DNA from: Nitrospira sp.
GTDB lineage: Bacteria; Nitrospirota; Nitrospiria; Nitrospirales; Nitrospiraceae
Length of the DNA stretch: 64,000 bases
Assembly (NCBI GenBank): GCA_030653545.1
Contig: JAURZE010000023.1
Coordinates: 1-64,000 of the forward strand
Direction: 5' to 3'
Shown: positions 31,920-40,231 of the stretch, piece after piece
Position numbering within the stretch: the stretch's first letter is position 1
How the letters are laid out: every line of letters begins with the position of its first letter
Translations under genes and position numbers: made by a program
Notes under the pieces: model-generated
The model's input: only the letters and a program-made list of their open reading frames with translations
What the model was told of the DNA's origin: nothing
Databases searched by the model: none

Positions 31920-34900
31920 ATGCCGCAGAGTGAGCCCGTTACTATCCTGGTCGTCAATGAGCAAGCTGACGAAATCAAGCTCGTCACACTGAGCCTGCGC
32001 GGCTTCTTTCCCGATTGCCGGGTTGAATCGGTCTATTCCGCCGAAGAAGCCCTCCGGTGGGTGGATCGCGCCGAGTGGGACCTGATTCTGATCGATGAGC
32101 GACTCGGGCTCCAGAGTCGCCCGTCGTTGGTGGCCACGCTCAGGGAACGCCTCCCGACTACCGCGATTGTGCTGCAGACCGACCGAAGCGATTCGACCGC
32201 CGCCGTCACGGCGCTGCAAGCCGGTGCCAACTTTCTTCTCTTCAAAAAATCACCCGCGTTTCTGACCGAACTGGTGCTCTACGCCAAAGGCGCCATCGAA
32301 CAACGCCATCTCCGCGCCACGTTCGCACACACGCACGATCGGCATACTCGCCTACTGGAAACACTCACGGACGTGTTCTACGAAGTCGATACGGAAGGAC
32401 GGTTTGTCTTCATTAGCCCCGGGGTCACCGCGCTCCTGGGCTACCAGCCCGAAGAACTGACCGGGGCACCCTTTTCCAAGCTGATTCCTCCCGATCAACA
32501 AGCGCGCGCGCACCATCGCATCAATGACCGCCGCACAGGCCCTCGGGCGGCGCGCCGGGTCCTGATTGAATTACTCAAGAAACCTCAGGCCACGGGCTCC
32601 GGCCAGGCCCGCGTGCAGGCCGAAGTCAGCGCCAAGGGTCTCTACGATGCGCGCCGCCACTACACCGGGAGCCTCGGACTCATCCGGGATATGACGGGGC
32701 CTCTCGCACAGACCGAGACCATTCAACGCCTTGAAACCAGACTGCTCGAATCAGATCGCCACCGCGCGATCGCCCAGCGCTTGACCAGCCTGTCGCATGA
32801 TCTGCACCGGCCGCTCTCCGCCGTGTTGACCCAATCCCAGCGGCTCCTGGACACAATCCGTGAGGCTCAGTTTGATACGCGCCTTGAAACCCTGACCGCG
32901 CGCGCACGGGAGGCCTCGGCATATGGAGACGCGTTAGCTCGGGCAGTCGTTGATGCCGGTCTAGCCGAAGACACGCTAGGACAGGTCATTGCCGAAGCTC
33001 TGGCTCCCGTTGCTCATCTCAACATCGTGCAGCACCGCGATGCGACCGGCCTTTCGAACGTGGGCAGTTCACGGAACGTCTGGGTACGGATCATTCAGAT
33101 TGTGGTGATCCAGGCGATTCGACAAATGGCCGCCCGCCAAGCGATGCACCGGCTGGACATATTCGCGCAGACCGTCACGGCCACCGGGACACCGATCGAT
33201 CCGGCGCCTGGCCTCTTTCCAGCTCCGGCACCCCGAGAGGTCGAGATTCTGATTCAGGAAAGCGACTCGGCAGCTACTCTCACGACCGGCTCACTACCGG
33301 CCTCCCCTGATCTCAACCAGGCCTATGAAGACATCGGCCAACTCCAGGGTCGCATGGAGTGGTTGGCCCCGGCGAGACAACCGCTCTCCATCCGCCTGTG
33401 GCTGCCGATTCCTGACGTGCCTCAGACACCTGAGGCAGCAGCAGAGGCGGCGCCAAGCCCGCCTGAGCCGCCCACAGCGGCACCGGTCGACACTCACGTA
33501 GAAACTCCGCTGCCTCCACCTTCAGACGGACCGCTCCCGGATCGAAGGATGGCCATACGTGCCGCGGTCCAACTTCCGGCGCGAGTGACCGTCGGCCCAG
33601 CAGTCCGCGAGGGAACCGTTCACACCTTGAGCCTGACGGGAGCCACCGTCACCCTGGTCGGGCCGCTCCCGAATCTCTCTGGCCAATCCGCCTATTTGGT
33701 GTTCAAGACCGTCGTAGGGATTCTGGAACTTCAAGCCACCGTCCACGAGCGTGGCATGCAGACCGGACCACCCGGTGAGACCGGAGAGCGCCCGGTCCTC
33801 GCATTCGAATTTACTCCGCCAGGAGAAACCGAGCGGAAGGTGCTGGGCTCCTTTATCGAGGCCGCCCAAGAACGGAGCCTGGCGATCAGCCTTGAGGCGT
33901 TACTGTCTCAGCCTGATGACGTCGCGCTTCCGGACCAGCCCGGTCAGGACCACCGAGCCACCGATCACCGGGAAGGCATCCGGGTCCGAGTCGCACTTCC
34001 GGTCCGGATTGATGGGGCTCACGAACAGAATCCGGCCGCTCGACAGCTTGGACTGGCGGTGAATTTGTCACGCGGAGGGGCCTGCCTGCAGGCCAAAACG
34101 CTTCCCGGCCAGGTGGGCGAGACGATCGTCTTGCATTTCCCCCACGGCAATGGGCAAAGTCATTCACAGCCTCACGAACCGGCCGCACCGGACGCCGTAC
34201 TCCCGGCGCAAATCGTGTGGACGGCTCCAGACTCCACGGCTCCTTCCGAGTTACGCCCGACGCACACTGAACCGGGTCAACGTTTCGGCGTCCGCTTTAT
34301 TGAACTGCCGGCCTTCGCCGAGCGCGAGGTCAACCGCGTCGTCGCCCAACACATCGGCTCGTCCATCGACTTGGATGGGATCGCCGGACGTGCGGCCATT
34401 GTCAGCGCCAGACGAGAATGCCGGAATGTACGCGGCCAAGTCATCGCCATTACCGACGATCACGCACGTCACCAGATTTCCCCGAATACGCCTATCGTGA
34501 TCCTCTCTCCCGGCTTCGGATGCACCCAGACCGACTACATTGCCCTGTCAGAATTCTTGGCCATCAATCGGCTCCGCGTCCTGCGCTATGACTACAGCAA
34601 CCATATCGGCCAAAGCGACGGCGATGTCCTCCAGACGACATTGCGGAGCATGCAGGCCGATCTGCAAACGGTTCTTGAATTTGCTCATACGACGTGGCCC
34701 ACCGCCCCACTCGCGATCCTGGCCGAAGACGTCGCGGCCCGAGTCGCCCTGAAGGTCATTGCGCAACGTCCTGTGGCCCAGCTTCTGCTGCTGGCCAACC
34801 CGGTGCTCGACATTCAGGCCGCCCTATCGGCCGAGCATCATCATGACCTTCTGGCCGACTACCAGCACGGCCTCAGACGGGGCAGCGGGAATGTGTGGGG

Positions 34901-36074
34901 CCTCAATGTCAATCTCGATCAGTTCCTGAGCGATCTCATCGCCGGCCACTATGCCACGCTGGCGACGACGGTGACCGATCTGTCTGCGCTGACTGTCCCC
35001 ATGGTTATCCTGAACTCTCCGTCAGCGGATCCCTCGATGCGGCATCCCTTTCCCAGCCCGGACGAATCACTTCGAGCCTTGCCGACGATGCCGACCACCG
35101 TCTCGATCCCCAGCGCGTTGTCGGTTACCGGGCGCACCTTCGACGCCCGCTTACTCGCGTCATTCAACACACTCTTCACGGAGATTGCTCGCGTGTGCTT
35201 CCCCGGAGAGGCACGGCCGGCCATCCACACACCGACCAGCCACGACATTTCCAAACAGTATCTCCTCGAGCGGGAGCGCATTCGGATCCGCCACCACGTC
35301 TCGCAGTCGTCTCGAGACGCCTTGTGGATCGCGCATCTCGCCCAGCTTCCGCAGCTCGGCACCCTGCATCACCATGTGCGACTGCTGCAAGAGCTGTATC
35401 AACAGGCTCTTCCGCTTGAACCCGGCATGCGCATCCTGGATATCGGATGCGGCGCGGGCGAGTTCGCGCACACGCTCCTCCTCAATCGCATGTATCACCT
35501 GCTCCACGCGTCACATGCGCCGCAACGCCCCCTACACTATGTCGGCATCGACCACTCCCAGGAAACGGTCGCGTCCGCAGAACAAGCCTTTACGGGGCTG
35601 TATCAGGAGTTACAATCCACGTTCTCCAAGATCGCCGGTCCGACGACTGCCGTGACGACTGAGTGGGGAATCCATCTCCCGTCCTCACGCGAAGCGGTCG
35701 ATCGAGTCGTCAGTCATCTCTCGCTCTCCTTCGCCTCCTCTCCCCTCACCTTCCTGCGACAGGCCGTTCAGACGCTCACGGAAGATGGACGCCTCATCGT
35801 GACGTGCGTACGTCCGCACACAGATCTTGCCGGGCTCTATCGCGAGCAACTCCATCACGCCGGGCAGGATGAGCTCTCCCCTGCGGCTCAAATTTTCCTC
35901 CACTATCTCGGACGGCTACACGAAGCGATTCGCCATGGGCTGCTGCACGCCTTTGACCGAGAACAACTGTCGGATCTCTTGATTCATGCCGGTGCAACCC
36001 CTCTTCGAATCGTGCCTATTCTGGATGGGCAGCTCCTGATCGCCACCGCCCGGAAGGGGAAATCCGCTGGCTGA
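31920..36074 (+). CDS. Multidomain signalling protein: receiver, PAS, degenerate kinase, two PilZ, LuxD-like hydrolase, methyltransferase
   Basis: The 1384-residue protein is a fusion I do not recognise as a described architecture. In order: a receiver (residues 1-125; N13-E14, phosphoacceptor D59); a PAS domain (about 140-250); a HisKA-like segment with the H-box SLSHDLHRPL (His293); a poorly conserved ATPase region (N-box Asn replaced, no DxGxG); a Pro/Ala linker (500-535); PilZ 1 (R543xxxR547, but TLSLTG instead of D/NxSxxG); PilZ 2 with both cyclic-di-GMP motifs intact (R684xxxR688 and NLSRGG at 715-720); an alpha/beta hydrolase-like domain (about 855-1060) like LuxD acyl-transferases, where the nucleophile position in AEDVAAR is Asp937 and the catalytic His region has none; and a class I SAM methyltransferase (ILDIGCGAGEF at 1172, YVGIDHS). 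Its neighbours are a kinase, an NtrC-type regulator and an HD-GYP protein. I infer a cyclic-di-GMP receptor with a methyltransferase output. Domain calls are by motif and the function is not known. Confidence 0.8.
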   Translation: MPQSEPVTILVVNEQADEIKLVTLSLRGFFPDCRVESVYSAEEALRWVDRAEWDLILIDERLGLQSRPSLVATLRERLPTTAIVLQTDRSDSTAAVTALQAGANFLLFKKSPAFLTELVLYAKGAIEQRHLRATFAHTHDRHTRLLETLTDVFYEVDTEGRFVFISPGVTALLGYQPEELTGAPFSKLIPPDQQARAHHRINDRRTGPRAARRVLIELLKKPQATGSGQARVQAEVSAKGLYDARRHYTGSLGLIRDMTGPLAQTETIQRLETRLLESDRHRAIAQRLTSLSHDLHRPLSAVLTQSQRLLDTIREAQFDTRLETLTARAREASAYGDALARAVVDAGLAEDTLGQVIAEALAPVAHLNIVQHRDATGLSNVGSSRNVWVRIIQIVVIQAIRQMAARQAMHRLDIFAQTVTATGTPIDPAPGLFPAPAPREVEILIQESDSAATLTTGSLPASPDLNQAYEDIGQLQGRMEWLAPARQPLSIRLWLPIPDVPQTPEAAAEAAPSPPEPPTAAPVDTHVETPLPPPSDGPLPDRRMAIRAAVQLPARVTVGPAVREGTVHTLSLTGATVTLVGPLPNLSGQSAYLVFKTVVGILELQATVHERGMQTGPPGETGERPVLAFEFTPPGETERKVLGSFIEAAQERSLAISLEALLSQPDDVALPDQPGQDHRATDHREGIRVRVALPVRIDGAHEQNPAARQLGLAVNLSRGGACLQAKTLPGQVGETIVLHFPHGNGQSHSQPHEPAAPDAVLPAQIVWTAPDSTAPSELRPTHTEPGQRFGVRFIELPAFAEREVNRVVAQHIGSSIDLDGIAGRAAIVSARRECRNVRGQVIAITDDHARHQISPNTPIVILSPGFGCTQTDYIALSEFLAINRLRVLRYDYSNHIGQSDGDVLQTTLRSMQADLQTVLEFAHTTWPTAPLAILAEDVAARVALKVIAQRPVAQLLLLANPVLDIQAALSAEHHHDLLADYQHGLRRGSGNVWGLNVNLDQFLSDLIAGHYATLATTVTDLSALTVPMVILNSPSADPSMRHPFPSPDESLRALPTMPTTVSIPSALSVTGRTFDARLLASFNTLFTEIARVCFPGEARPAIHTPTSHDISKQYLLERERIRIRHHVSQSSRDALWIAHLAQLPQLGTLHHHVRLLQELYQQALPLEPGMRILDIGCGAGEFAHTLLLNRMYHLLHASHAPQRPLHYVGIDHSQETVASAEQAFTGLYQELQSTFSKIAGPTTAVTTEWGIHLPSSREAVDRVVSHLSLSFASSPLTFLRQAVQTLTEDGRLIVTCVRPHTDLAGLYREQLHHAGQDELSPAAQIFLHYLGRLHEAIRHGLLHAFDREQLSDLLIHAGATPLRIVPILDGQLLIATARKGKSAG

Positions 36075-36184: not shown

Positions 36185-37456
36185 ATGACTGACCACCCCC
36201 TTCCCCAGGCCACCGCTTCATTCACCGCGCTCACTCCCCTCCAGCGGCTCACCAGATTTGCCCAGGATATGGGAACGCTTTCGGACCGCGCCGTGATCGC
36301 CAACCGCATTCTCGTCGAACTCTGTGACGCCACCACCTCCCGCCAAGGCGCGCTGTACTTGCTCGATCGTGAGCACGATCGATATGACCTGGTAATGACC
36401 GTCGCCGGCCAGAGCACAGCGGCCCCACTCCCCTCATTTGCTTCGACTCACCCACTCATTCACGCACTCGCCCACAAGCATCATCTCCTCTCAGTCGCAG
36501 ACATAGCGGACATCCCTCCGATCACGCCTGAATTAGCCGACACATTAGGGGCAGCTCAATCGACCTTGGCCGTGCCGCTTCTGAACAAAGCTCGATTGAT
36601 CGCCTTTGCGCTGCTCGGATTCCCTGCGGACCGGCCGCTCGATCATGCGGATGGACGGGACCTCCTCACCGCCCTGGCGCAGAGCGGAGCCAACGCCCTC
36701 GACTCCATCCTCGCTCACGACGATCTCCACCAGTCTCAAACGCTCATGCGCCGAACCGACCGACTTCGCTCACTGGAAATCATCGCCGGCGGGTTTGCCC
36801 ACGAAATCCGGAATCCCCTGACGTCGATCAAAACCTTTATCCAGTTGGCTCCGGAACGAAAGGACGACACGGAATTCATCCACGACTTCAGTCGCATCGT
36901 GCTGGACGACGTGCACCGGATCGAACGGCTGATTCAGGAAATTCTGGACTACGCCCGCTATATGGAACCCAAGTTGACGGATGAGGATCTCAACGAGATC
37001 GTCACCTCCTGCCTCTATTTCATCGAAGTGAAGGCGGACAGCAAACGGATCAAGATTGAAAAACAGTTGGCGTCTGAGCTTCCTCGTGTCATGTTAGATC
37101 GTCAACAAATAAAGCAGGTCCTTTTGAATCTGCTGCTCAACGCCATCGACGCGATGGGAGACGGTGGAGGGCAGTTGATGGTTCGCACCCACCGGATCCT
37201 AAAGCCGGGGGCAACGGTGTGGACACAGATTGAGATCGAAGATAGCGGCCCGGGCATTTCCAAGGCCAACCTGGACCACATCTTCGATCCGTTCTTCACG
37301 ACGAAGCACACCAGCGGCGAGCATGCGGGAACGGGCTTGGGATTGACGATTGTGCATCAGATTATCCAAGAGCATCGCGGTGAAATTCAGGTCGAGAGTA
37401 CCGAGGGAGTGGGAACCACGTTTTCCGTGAATCTTCCGGCCCTCCCGATAGACTAG
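36185..37456 (+). CDS. GAF-domain sensor histidine kinase (NtrB/AtoS-like)
   Basis: The 423-residue kinase has no membrane segment. A GAF domain spans about residues 40-185. The dimerisation domain has H-box GGFAHEIRNPLTSIK with His206, followed by the N-box LLLNAIDAM, G1 box DSGPGI, F-box DPFFTTK and G2 box GTGLGL, all intact, so it should autophosphorylate. It is a cytoplasmic sensor of an unknown ligand. The next gene begins eight bases later and encodes an NtrC-type regulator, its likely partner. It follows the 1384-residue gene by 110 bases, on the same strand. Confidence 0.92.
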   Translation: MTDHPLPQATASFTALTPLQRLTRFAQDMGTLSDRAVIANRILVELCDATTSRQGALYLLDREHDRYDLVMTVAGQSTAAPLPSFASTHPLIHALAHKHHLLSVADIADIPPITPELADTLGAAQSTLAVPLLNKARLIAFALLGFPADRPLDHADGRDLLTALAQSGANALDSILAHDDLHQSQTLMRRTDRLRSLEIIAGGFAHEIRNPLTSIKTFIQLAPERKDDTEFIHDFSRIVLDDVHRIERLIQEILDYARYMEPKLTDEDLNEIVTSCLYFIEVKADSKRIKIEKQLASELPRVMLDRQQIKQVLLNLLLNAIDAMGDGGGQLMVRTHRILKPGATVWTQIEIEDSGPGISKANLDHIFDPFFTTKHTSGEHAGTGLGLTIVHQIIQEHRGEIQVESTEGVGTTFSVNLPALPID

Positions 37457-37463
37457 GAGTACT

Positions 37464-38894
37464 GTGGAAAGTTCAGCCATGAAAAAGCGCGTTCTCTTGA
37501 TCGACGACGAAGCCCGTGTCCGGACTTCACTGAAAATGGTGCTCGAGCCGAACTACGAGATCCTCCAGGCCGCGGATGCTCAGGAGGGCCTCGAGACGTT
37601 CAGAAAAGAAGGACCTGATCTGGTCCTGCTCGATGTCATTCTCCCGGGAACCGACGGACTGGCCGTGCTGGAAACCCTGCGCTCTGAAAGCCGTATGACT
37701 CCCGTGATCATGCTCACGGGCACGAAGTCGGTCAAGACCGCCGTCGACGCGATGAAACTGGGCGCCGCCGACTATTTGTCCAAACCCTTTGACGTCGAAG
37801 AATTGCGCATCGTCGTGGATCGCGCGCTCAGCTCTCAAGCCCTCGAACGGGAAGTCAAACAACTCCGGGCGCAAGTCGTCCAGCGCTATGCCTTCCACAA
37901 CCTCATCGGCAAGAGCCAAGGCATGCAGGAGATTTACGCGAAGATCGAACAAGTAGCGGACAGCCGAACCACCGTGCTGATTACCGGCGAAAGCGGAACG
38001 GGAAAAGAGCTTGTCGCAAAAGCCCTGCACTACAACAGCGGCCGGCGTGAGAAGCCCTTCATTGCCCTGAACTGCGCGGCGCTCCCGGAAACACTGATTG
38101 AGAGCGAACTCTTCGGCCACGAGAAAGGTTCCTTTACCGATGCCACGGCCAGACGTGTCGGCCAGTTCGAACTCGCCAATACCGGCACCCTGTTCCTGGA
38201 CGAAATCGGCGATCTCAGCGCCATGACACAAGCCAAGCTCCTGAGAGTGCTCCAGGAACGGGAGTTTACGAGAATCGGCGGCGTCCAATCGATCAAGGTC
38301 GATGTCCGTATCGTCGCCGCCACCAACAGAAATCTCGAAGACATGGTGCGCAAGGGGCAATTTCGTGAAGATCTCTACTACCGCATCAACGTGATCTCGC
38401 TGTTTCTGCCTCCCCTCCGTGAACGCGGTGAAGATATTCCCCTGCTCGCCAAGCACTTCCTTGCCAAGCGAGTCGAGGAAGAGAAGCGCCCGCACATCGA
38501 ATTCGGGAAAGAAGCGCTGGAGGTCCTGACCCGCTACCCCTGGCCGGGAAACGTCCGGGAAATGGAAAATATCATCGAGCAAGCTTTTATCTGGTCGCAG
38601 AATTGCCCGCAGATTACCCAGGAGCATCTGCCGACCATTATGAAAAGCGACTCGCGATCATCCTCACTCCGCGACGACACGCTCGCCGGCCGAATGTCCC
38701 TAGAAAAAGCGGTCATGGAATTTGAGCGGGAGATCATTCTCGATGCATTGAAACGAACCAACTATGTCCAGACCCACGCCGCCAATCTCTTAGGAATCAG
38801 CCGGCGCATGCTGAAATACCGGATGGATACCTTGGGAATCGGCCGACCGGACAATGGGAACAGTCAAGAACCAGAGCCGCCTGTGCAGGAATAA
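37464..38894 (+). CDS. NtrC-family sigma-54-dependent response regulator
   Basis: The 476-residue protein has a receiver (phosphoacceptor D57), an AAA+ domain and a Fis-type DNA-binding domain. Walker A is GESGTGKE (from residue 175). The sigma-54 contact loop reads GSFTDA (222-227) instead of GAFTGA; TDA variants are known among activators. Walker B, LFLDEIGDL, and the arginine-finger region are present. The C-terminal HTH is AANLLGISRRMLKYRMDTLG. The GTG at 37464, with AGGAG before it, is used. It is paired with the kinase upstream and is the obvious candidate to act at the sigma-54 promoter in front of the following gene. Confidence 0.93.
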   Translation: MESSAMKKRVLLIDDEARVRTSLKMVLEPNYEILQAADAQEGLETFRKEGPDLVLLDVILPGTDGLAVLETLRSESRMTPVIMLTGTKSVKTAVDAMKLGAADYLSKPFDVEELRIVVDRALSSQALEREVKQLRAQVVQRYAFHNLIGKSQGMQEIYAKIEQVADSRTTVLITGESGTGKELVAKALHYNSGRREKPFIALNCAALPETLIESELFGHEKGSFTDATARRVGQFELANTGTLFLDEIGDLSAMTQAKLLRVLQEREFTRIGGVQSIKVDVRIVAATNRNLEDMVRKGQFREDLYYRINVISLFLPPLRERGEDIPLLAKHFLAKRVEEEKRPHIEFGKEALEVLTRYPWPGNVREMENIIEQAFIWSQNCPQITQEHLPTIMKSDSRSSSLRDDTLAGRMSLEKAVMEFEREIILDALKRTNYVQTHAANLLGISRRMLKYRMDTLGIGRPDNGNSQEPEPPVQE

Positions 38895-38956: not shown

Positions 38957-39078
38957 ACTACGTAGTCAAACGATCAAGTGATCTACATATAGACTTTCTA
39001 CGTAGCAGGCCCCCTGCGGATTGATCATCCCGAGTAAGTGCCTGAAAAGGAACAAGTATTGCTTGACAGGTTACGTAG
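38957..39078 (+). promoter_or_regulatory. Three TACGTA palindromes, candidate activator sites
   Basis: ACTACGTAGT (38957-38966), CTACGTAG (38998-39005) and TTACGTAG (39071-39078) share the TACGTA core. The centre-to-centre distances are 40 and 73 bases, close to four and seven helical turns. The first two lie 70 to 115 bases before the likely start of transcription, where NtrC-type enhancers act; the third overlaps that start. Which protein binds is inference. Confidence 0.45.
39048..39063 (+). promoter_or_regulatory. Candidate sigma-54 promoter for the HD-GYP gene
   Basis: AGGAACAAGTATTGCT has the invariant GG and GC exactly ten bases apart (39049-39050 and 39061-39062), plus TTGC as in the consensus TGGCAC-N5-TTGC. 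Transcription would start near 39074, about 15 bases before the start codon at 39089. An NtrC-type activator gene lies immediately upstream. Confidence 0.5.
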
Positions 39079-39088
39079 TTGGGGGTAC

Positions 39089-40231
39089 ATGAGCACTATG
39101 AGCACAACAACTTCTCAAGACGGATCCCAAACAAAGCCGACGGTTCTTGTCGTCGATGACGAGGCCGGACCGCGTGATGCACTCAAAGTCATCTTGCGGC
39201 CCTTCTTCAACATCCGCTCGGCGGACAACGCGCAAGCGGCGCTCGACGTCTTGAGTCATGAATCCATCGATCTCATTACGCTGGATCAAAAACTCCCCGA
39301 TCGTCAGGGCATCGACCTCCTGCAGGATATTAAGCACGATTACGCCGATATCGAAGTCATCATCATTACCGGCTATGGAAGCCTGAAGTCCGCCATGGAA
39401 GGCATTCGTCATGGCGCGGCCGGCTACCTACTCAAGCCATTCAATGTCACCGAACTGATTTCTCTTATCAGCCAGACGCTTGAGAAGAAACAGCGCCTGG
39501 ACCTCATCCGGAACGTCTTAAAGAGCTCGACCGACCTCTGGGGAGAAGAGCAGGCCGCACGACGCGCGTGGGAGTCACTCAAGACCAGGTACTTCGCCAT
39601 CGGAATGCCTGAGCAGGACCCTTCCGGTGCGCCACCAGATCTGCTTCCTCTGCTCTCCGATCTCCTGGAAGCCAAAGATCGTCAATTGCTGAACCATTGC
39701 AGCCGTGTCAGCTTCTACGCCACATTACTTGCCAATCGCCTTAGCCTGACCCTTGCAGAGCAAAAGTCATTGGCTATCGGGGCCTTCCTGCACGACATCG
39801 GCAAGGTCAGCCTCCTGAATTATCATTTTTCAGATGAGCCGATTCTCCCCTCAGGAGAAAGCACCTTTTCCAAAGAACATGGCGAGACGGGCGCACGGAT
39901 GATTCTTCCCCTGGGGTACCCGGCTGAGGTCGGTCAGGTGATTTCCTATCATCATGAACGGTGGGACGGATCAGGCTATCCGCATGGACTTCAAGGAGAA
40001 GGGATTCCCTTACTGGCCAGAATCGTCAGCATTGCCCAGATGTTCGATCATCTGACAGCGGAAGTCCCCGGACGATCACCACTCCCGGTGGATCAGGCCA
40101 TCCAGCAAATCGCCCTTCAGGCCAATACCTACTTCGATCCCATGCTGGCGGATCAATTTGCTCGAGTCGCGACGGAATGTAAGGCATCGCTCCCGGCGAT
40201 GGCGATCGCGACTACGCCGAGCGGCGTCTAA
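39089..40231 (+). CDS. Response regulator with HD-GYP cyclic-di-GMP phosphodiesterase domain
   Basis: The roughly 380-residue protein has a receiver (DDE acidic cluster, phosphoacceptor D66) and an HD-GYP domain with all hallmark motifs: HDIGKV (H235-D236), HHERWDGSGYPHG with G296-Y297-P298. This family hydrolyses cyclic-di-GMP. The ATG at 39089 is chosen; a GTG at 39038 would place the candidate sigma-54 promoter inside the gene. It is the fourth signalling gene in a row and could lower cyclic-di-GMP when the upstream kinase/regulator pair is active, relieving the PilZ protein of ligand. It converges on recN. Confidence 0.9.
   Translation: MSTMSTTTSQDGSQTKPTVLVVDDEAGPRDALKVILRPFFNIRSADNAQAALDVLSHESIDLITLDQKLPDRQGIDLLQDIKHDYADIEVIIITGYGSLKSAMEGIRHGAAGYLLKPFNVTELISLISQTLEKKQRLDLIRNVLKSSTDLWGEEQAARRAWESLKTRYFAIGMPEQDPSGAPPDLLPLLSDLLEAKDRQLLNHCSRVSFYATLLANRLSLTLAEQKSLAIGAFLHDIGKVSLLNYHFSDEPILPSGESTFSKEHGETGARMILPLGYPAEVGQVISYHHERWDGSGYPHGLQGEGIPLLARIVSIAQMFDHLTAEVPGRSPLPVDQAIQQIALQANTYFDPMLADQFARVATECKASLPAMAIATTPSGV

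Follow-up and report, generated by a model that had tools for sequence, protein, structure and literature searches.

Members of the genus Nitrospira play a key part in the oxidation of nitrite and ammonia, and their cell signalling has been little studied. In a survey of the Nitrospirales, quorum sensing is given as AHL systems, and c-di-GMP and PilZ are not mentioned (PMC12342949). Among the known systems closest to the locus considered here, two are described in other bacteria. Phc quorum sensing in Ralstonia includes the methyltransferase PhcB, the kinase PhcS and the receiver proteins PhcR and PhcQ (PMC8578825). In the Rpf/DSF system of Xanthomonas (RpfF, RpfC, RpfG), the synthase of the fatty-acid signal is held in check by a receiver, and c-di-GMP is broken down by a receiver-HD-GYP protein (PMC5391125).

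Architecture and conservation of the window protein

The window, namely the whole stretch of 64,000 nucleotides that was analysed, contains the following genes and domains. Relatives that carry Ser at the nucleophile position of the hydrolase are referred to as Ser-bearing.

31920..36074, + strand: REC-PAS-pseudokinase-PilZ-PilZ-pseudohydrolase-methyltransferase protein (ATG ORF, 1384 aa)
31938..32285, + strand: receiver domain, residues 7-122 (Pfam and 51-ortholog alignment)
32328..32699, + strand: PAS domain, residues 137-260 (Pfam)
32703..33419, + strand: degenerate histidine-kinase-like DHp/CA region, residues 262-500 (alignment, sparse Pfam matches, fold search)
33531..33884, + strand: PilZ1, residues 538-655 (RxxxR 543-547, at 33546-33560, invariant)
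33954..34355, + strand: PilZ2, residues 679-812 (RxxxR 684-688, at 33969-33983, invariant; NLSRGG 715-720, at 34062-34079)
34395..35219, + strand: LuxD-like alpha/beta hydrolase, residues 826-1100 (Asp937, at 34728-34730, in the nucleophile position; no conserved His)
35247..36059, + strand: class I SAM methyltransferase domain, residues 1110-1380 (motif I ILDIGCGAGEF 1172-1182, at 35433-35465)
36185..37456, + strand: soluble GAF-HisKA-HATPase histidine kinase (boxes intact; homolog of the 7TM-GAF kinases found next to Ser-bearing relatives)
37464..38894, + strand: NtrC-like receiver-AAA-HTH response regulator (domain matches, conserved gene order)
39038..40231, + strand: receiver-HD-GYP protein, probable c-di-GMP phosphodiesterase (HD and GYP motifs, domain matches, conserved gene order)

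The Pfam search of the window protein returned Response_reg (residues 9-111), PAS (144-258), PilZ (683-809) and Methyltransf_23 (1151-1360), together with a weak HisKA match (287-330, E 0.007). Acyl_transf_2, the LuxD family, was matched at 850-1034 (E 2.8e-14) with 53.5 bits, above the gathering score of 20.3. The top NCBIfam match was LuxD as well (E 6e-14), with a score of 52 against a cut-off of 420. The original prediction had placed the ORF, D59, D937, R684/R688, NLSRGG and ILDIGCGAGEF correctly, and its domain order was borne out by the Pfam and NCBIfam searches, the alignment and the fold search. Its view that this order belongs to no named family also held: no name was found in the searched domain libraries or literature. 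Promoter and terminator scans gave no signal above shuffled sequence.

Of 175 Nitrospiraceae genomes searched, 125 gave matches to the window protein, and many of these matches span its full length, with 33-98% identity. The presence of full-length orthologs in several genera indicates that the domain assembly is not due to chance. The window genome contains the Asp copy only. When plasmids were searched with the window sequence, no fused homolog was found; nor did any place in plasmids cover 80% of a Ser-bearing relative, the best match being an annotated acyl transferase. Comparison of near relatives gave dN/dS values of 0.04-0.29 in every folded domain, pseudo-domains included, so the protein is constrained rather than decaying. 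The order of the four genes is conserved in nearly all full-length loci. Note that the HD-GYP protein matches the c-di-GMP phosphodiesterase model below its cut-off, and that the NtrC-like regulator carries GSFTDA in place of the GAFTGA usual in sigma-54 activators.

Residue conservation was counted in an alignment of 51 orthologs. The receiver retains D59 (50/51), T/S87 (51/51) and K109 (49/51), and has Asn13-Glu14 where receiver domains usually carry an Asp pair. In the kinase-like region, the N, G1 and G2 boxes are lost, and His293 of the HDxxxP box (32796-32798) is present in the window copy and in only 9 of the 51 orthologs. The conserved phospho-acceptor His together with N/G boxes that would mark an active histidine kinase is therefore absent, in agreement with the pseudokinase originally predicted. 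HisKA matched this region in 7 and HATPase_c in 5 of 36 orthologs, and in the alignment one ortholog, at locus L067, still looks kinase-like over the whole of this region. When a partly confident AlphaFold model of the region was compared with the PDB, histidine kinases ranked first (best E 7e-6). The sparse Pfam matches, the alignment and the fold search together mark the part from PAS to PilZ1 as a diverged histidine kinase.

The hydrolase had been predicted to be non-catalytic, and the alignment agrees. Asp937 occupies the nucleophile position in 50 of 51 orthologs and, in the alignment with LuxD, stands opposite Ser114 (PDB 1tht). No conserved His was found in residues 1020-1110 of the orthologs, and the main clade has also lost the DxW acid segment of the Ser-bearing relatives. 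Thus, the LuxD-type Ser-Asp-His triad is missing from the window protein and its orthologs. Modeling of residues 813-1384 with AlphaFold was uninformative (pLDDT 37, with input limited to sequences 77-92% identical).

The methyltransferase and PilZ2 had been singled out as the parts that look intact, and the motifs of both are intact in the window copy. Motif I, the beta-2 Asp1211 and Asp1261 are present in this copy and its nearest relatives, the dN/dS of the domain is 0.11-0.15, and activity is therefore possible. Across the orthologs the domain is eroded: Asp1211 is kept in 33/51 and Gly1180 in 21/51, genera g17, g15 and g5 have no motif Cys and mostly no beta-2 acid, while g14 and much of g1 lack the third Gly. 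PilZ2 was confirmed to be of the predicted c-di-GMP type by its motifs RxxxR and [D/N]xSxxG, with R684/R688, N/D715 and G720 in 51/51 and S717 in 48/51. PilZ1 has to be added to the conserved parts: it passes Pfam in 35/35 orthologs and R543 and R547 are invariant (51/51), but residue 569 is Thr in the window copy and Asn or Asp in most orthologs. Seven GGDEF stretches were found in the window genome. With a PilZ protein encoded next to one of the receiver-HD-GYP type, a c-di-GMP circuit is likely.

Ser-bearing relatives and the adjoining kinase

Relatives of about 670-1277 aa were found both within Nitrospiraceae and in further families of Nitrospirota. All 28 of 28 aligned Ser-bearing rows have the full triad, namely an ATSLAGRVA-type elbow, the acid in a DxW segment and His in LHR or MHR, and the methyltransferase motifs of these proteins are intact. 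In the tree, the main Asp group forms a single clade (bootstrap 100, SH-aLRT 100). In some basal genera (L079, L080 and L086), the copy lying in the gene neighbourhood known from the window bears Ser, so the change from Ser to Asp occurred at this locus. Genus g14 has retained both a Ser-bearing paralog and an Asp copy. Receiver-PAS is separate from the enzyme in L079 and fused to it in L078, L080 and L086. The stretch from PAS to PilZ1 would have lengthened from about 40-125 aa to about 275-290 aa in the clade including Nitrospira.

Two further loci differ in composition. The protein at L089:4075-6495 has Asp at the nucleophile position with the triad acid and His kept and a soluble kinase adjoining, and is a candidate Asp-nucleophile hydrolase. 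L088:256-7228 encodes a receiver-PAS-PilZ-methyltransferase protein without the hydrolase, and an ORF of 995 aa at this locus has nine hydrophobic segments.

In most loci, a kinase homologous to the product of 36185-37456 is encoded directly downstream of the hub or enzyme gene on the same strand. Beside Ser-bearing enzymes, this kinase has a HisKA_7TM membrane part and GAF according to Pfam, with at least three hydrophobic segments in 24/24 testable loci. At Asp/Asn loci, it is soluble in 31/31 testable cases (29 Asp loci with no segment; one Asp and one Asn locus with a single weak segment). L078, with three segments in an ORF cut by the contig end, and the frame-shifted L082 with six segments fit the Ser/membrane-kinase pattern. 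The 1666-aa hydrolase-methyltransferase-kinase fusion at L082:7308-12305 was not counted as a fusion, being probably an assembly frameshift at the methyltransferase end. Loci with no such kinase in range include L084 and L085, where the NtrC-like gene is directly downstream, L067, L088 and L104, and those on early-ending contigs. That Ser is absent just where the kinase lacks a membrane sensor suggests a former enzyme-receptor pair turned internal switch. The pattern is suggestive rather than statistical proof, since it amounts to only one or two evolutionary events. A test on the tree for separate, repeated joint losses of Ser and 7TM had no power.

A second acyl enzyme was found beside the same kinase family. 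On contig C38 of the window genome (L116:3930-7928), the gene for a 588-aa protein with a weak PilZ match and a long-chain acyl-ACP-reductase-like part is followed, after a gap of 10 bp, by that for a 7TM-GAF kinase with 45% identity to the L094 kinase of the same family. The reductase-like gene occurs in 16 of 172 family genomes and is followed by a 7TM-GAF kinase in 15 of the 16; in the sixteenth (L132), the match is cut short by the contig. Since two unrelated acyl enzymes adjoin one kinase family, an acyl-derived ligand is suggested, and this is the strongest hint of it.

Possible function and history of the locus

On its ordinary side, the window protein is a multidomain signalling protein; what is unusual is that a whole lineage carries this pseudoenzyme, that its catalytic ancestor can be traced, and that the kinase changed along with it. 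Its likely identity has shifted from that originally proposed because the relatives carry a catalytic hydrolase-methyltransferase beside a 7TM kinase. The best explanation, to which we give an even chance, is a c-di-GMP-sensing, signal-integrating pseudoenzyme hub derived from an acyl-enzyme/receptor-kinase pair. The ancestor of the C-terminal half would have been a bifunctional LuxD-like Ser hydrolase and SAM methyltransferase behind PilZ-like domains. Its gene would have immediately preceded that of a 7TM-GAF histidine kinase, as in the relatives, and the enzyme would have made or removed an acyl-derived ligand sensed by that kinase. In the Nitrospira lineage, receiver-PAS would have joined, the nucleophile Ser become Asp, the catalytic His and the kinase membrane part been lost, and a degenerate kinase-like region been added. 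The probable order starts from PilZ-hydrolase(Ser)-methyltransferase with a 7TM-GAF kinase, to which receiver-PAS joins; Ser and 7TM are then lost, and finally the PAS-PilZ1 stretch grows. The present protein most likely senses c-di-GMP through its predicted PilZ binding sites and, through contacts between proteins, participates in the phospho-relay of the adjoining GAF kinase, the NtrC-like regulator and the receiver-HD-GYP protein. An acyl ligand may still be bound by the pseudo-hydrolase. The receiver without the usual Asp pair, the missing kinase in some relatives (L084, L085, L104), the intact methyltransferase motifs of the window copy and the small number of events behind the joint loss of Ser and 7TM count against this explanation.

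Other explanations keep one of the enzymes active. A methyltransferase gated by c-di-GMP and phosphorylation, with methylation as the output and the pseudo-hydrolase as a substrate binder only, is near the view of the original prediction and is considered unlikely. The intact motifs of the window copy and its nearest relatives and the low dN/dS of the domain agree with it, but genera with an eroded motif I and beta-2 acid (g17, g15, g5) or no third Gly still keep the protein, so methylation as the output is not upheld in the form first proposed. Epoxide hydrolases and haloalkane dehalogenases use an Asp nucleophile, and Asp937 could likewise serve a living hydrolase with a new substrate. Its conservation is stricter than a free position would predict and the L089 protein combines Asp with a retained triad acid and His, but the main clade has neither the conserved His nor the DxW acid segment; this is the least probable of the alternatives.

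Envelope and exopolysaccharide control of the PrsK/PrsR (PEP-CTERM/exosortase) kind, in which the hydrolase would stem from exosortase-associated hydrolases and not from an enzyme that makes a signal, falls between these two in likelihood. With the PrsK model (TIGR02916), E values are 2.6e-35 for the 7TM kinase of the relatives and 8e-36 for the window kinase; the NtrC-like regulator is matched by the PrsR model (TIGR02915) at 7.8e-133, and exosortase-associated hydrolase models match the hydrolase of the relatives (4e-9). However, all these matches are under the curated cut-offs (123.8 bits versus 300 for the window kinase and 443.6 versus 502.6 for the regulator), and the AtoS/AtoC and LuxD models score higher.

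Starting from the pseudoenzyme hub as the preferred explanation, a wider proposal can be made only tentatively, as it is more doubtful than the hub itself. Nitrospirota may have an undescribed acyl-based signalling system: acyl enzymes tethered to PilZ domains, either hydrolase-methyltransferase or acyl-ACP reductase, would produce the ligands, and 7TM-GAF kinases of a family devoted to them would respond. One of these synthases would have become a receiver-fused pseudo-synthase in Nitrospira, and extracellular or membrane sensing an intracellular c-di-GMP switch. On the hub explanation, the living relatives preserve at this locus the successive steps by which an enzyme-receptor pair turned into a pseudoenzyme switch. 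The locus also points to specific pairs of enzyme and kinase for which a ligand can be sought.

Comparison with known systems

The fold of the hydrolase, as far as can be read from sequence, is shared with the LuxD acyl transferase/thioesterase (PDB 1tht; Acyl_transf_2), including a common RYD..H.G.S.G segment; unlike LuxD, the window clade has no nucleophile Ser or His and is fused to methyltransferase, PilZ and receiver domains. The GAF kinase and NtrC-like regulator of the window match the PrsK/PrsR models of exosortase systems, but they score below the cut-offs and have another enzyme partner. With Rpf/DSF there is a working analogy and not homology: a fatty-acid signal, a membrane kinase whose receiver restrains the synthase, and a receiver-HD-GYP output. 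RpfF is not a LuxD-like hydrolase, and the window locus has no hybrid kinase. The likeness to Phc, set beside the window locus by description, is also one of working only, in that a methyltransferase, a sensor kinase and receiver proteins are encoded together; here, in contrast, the methyltransferase and hydrolase are fused, PilZ domains are present and the window copy is degenerate.
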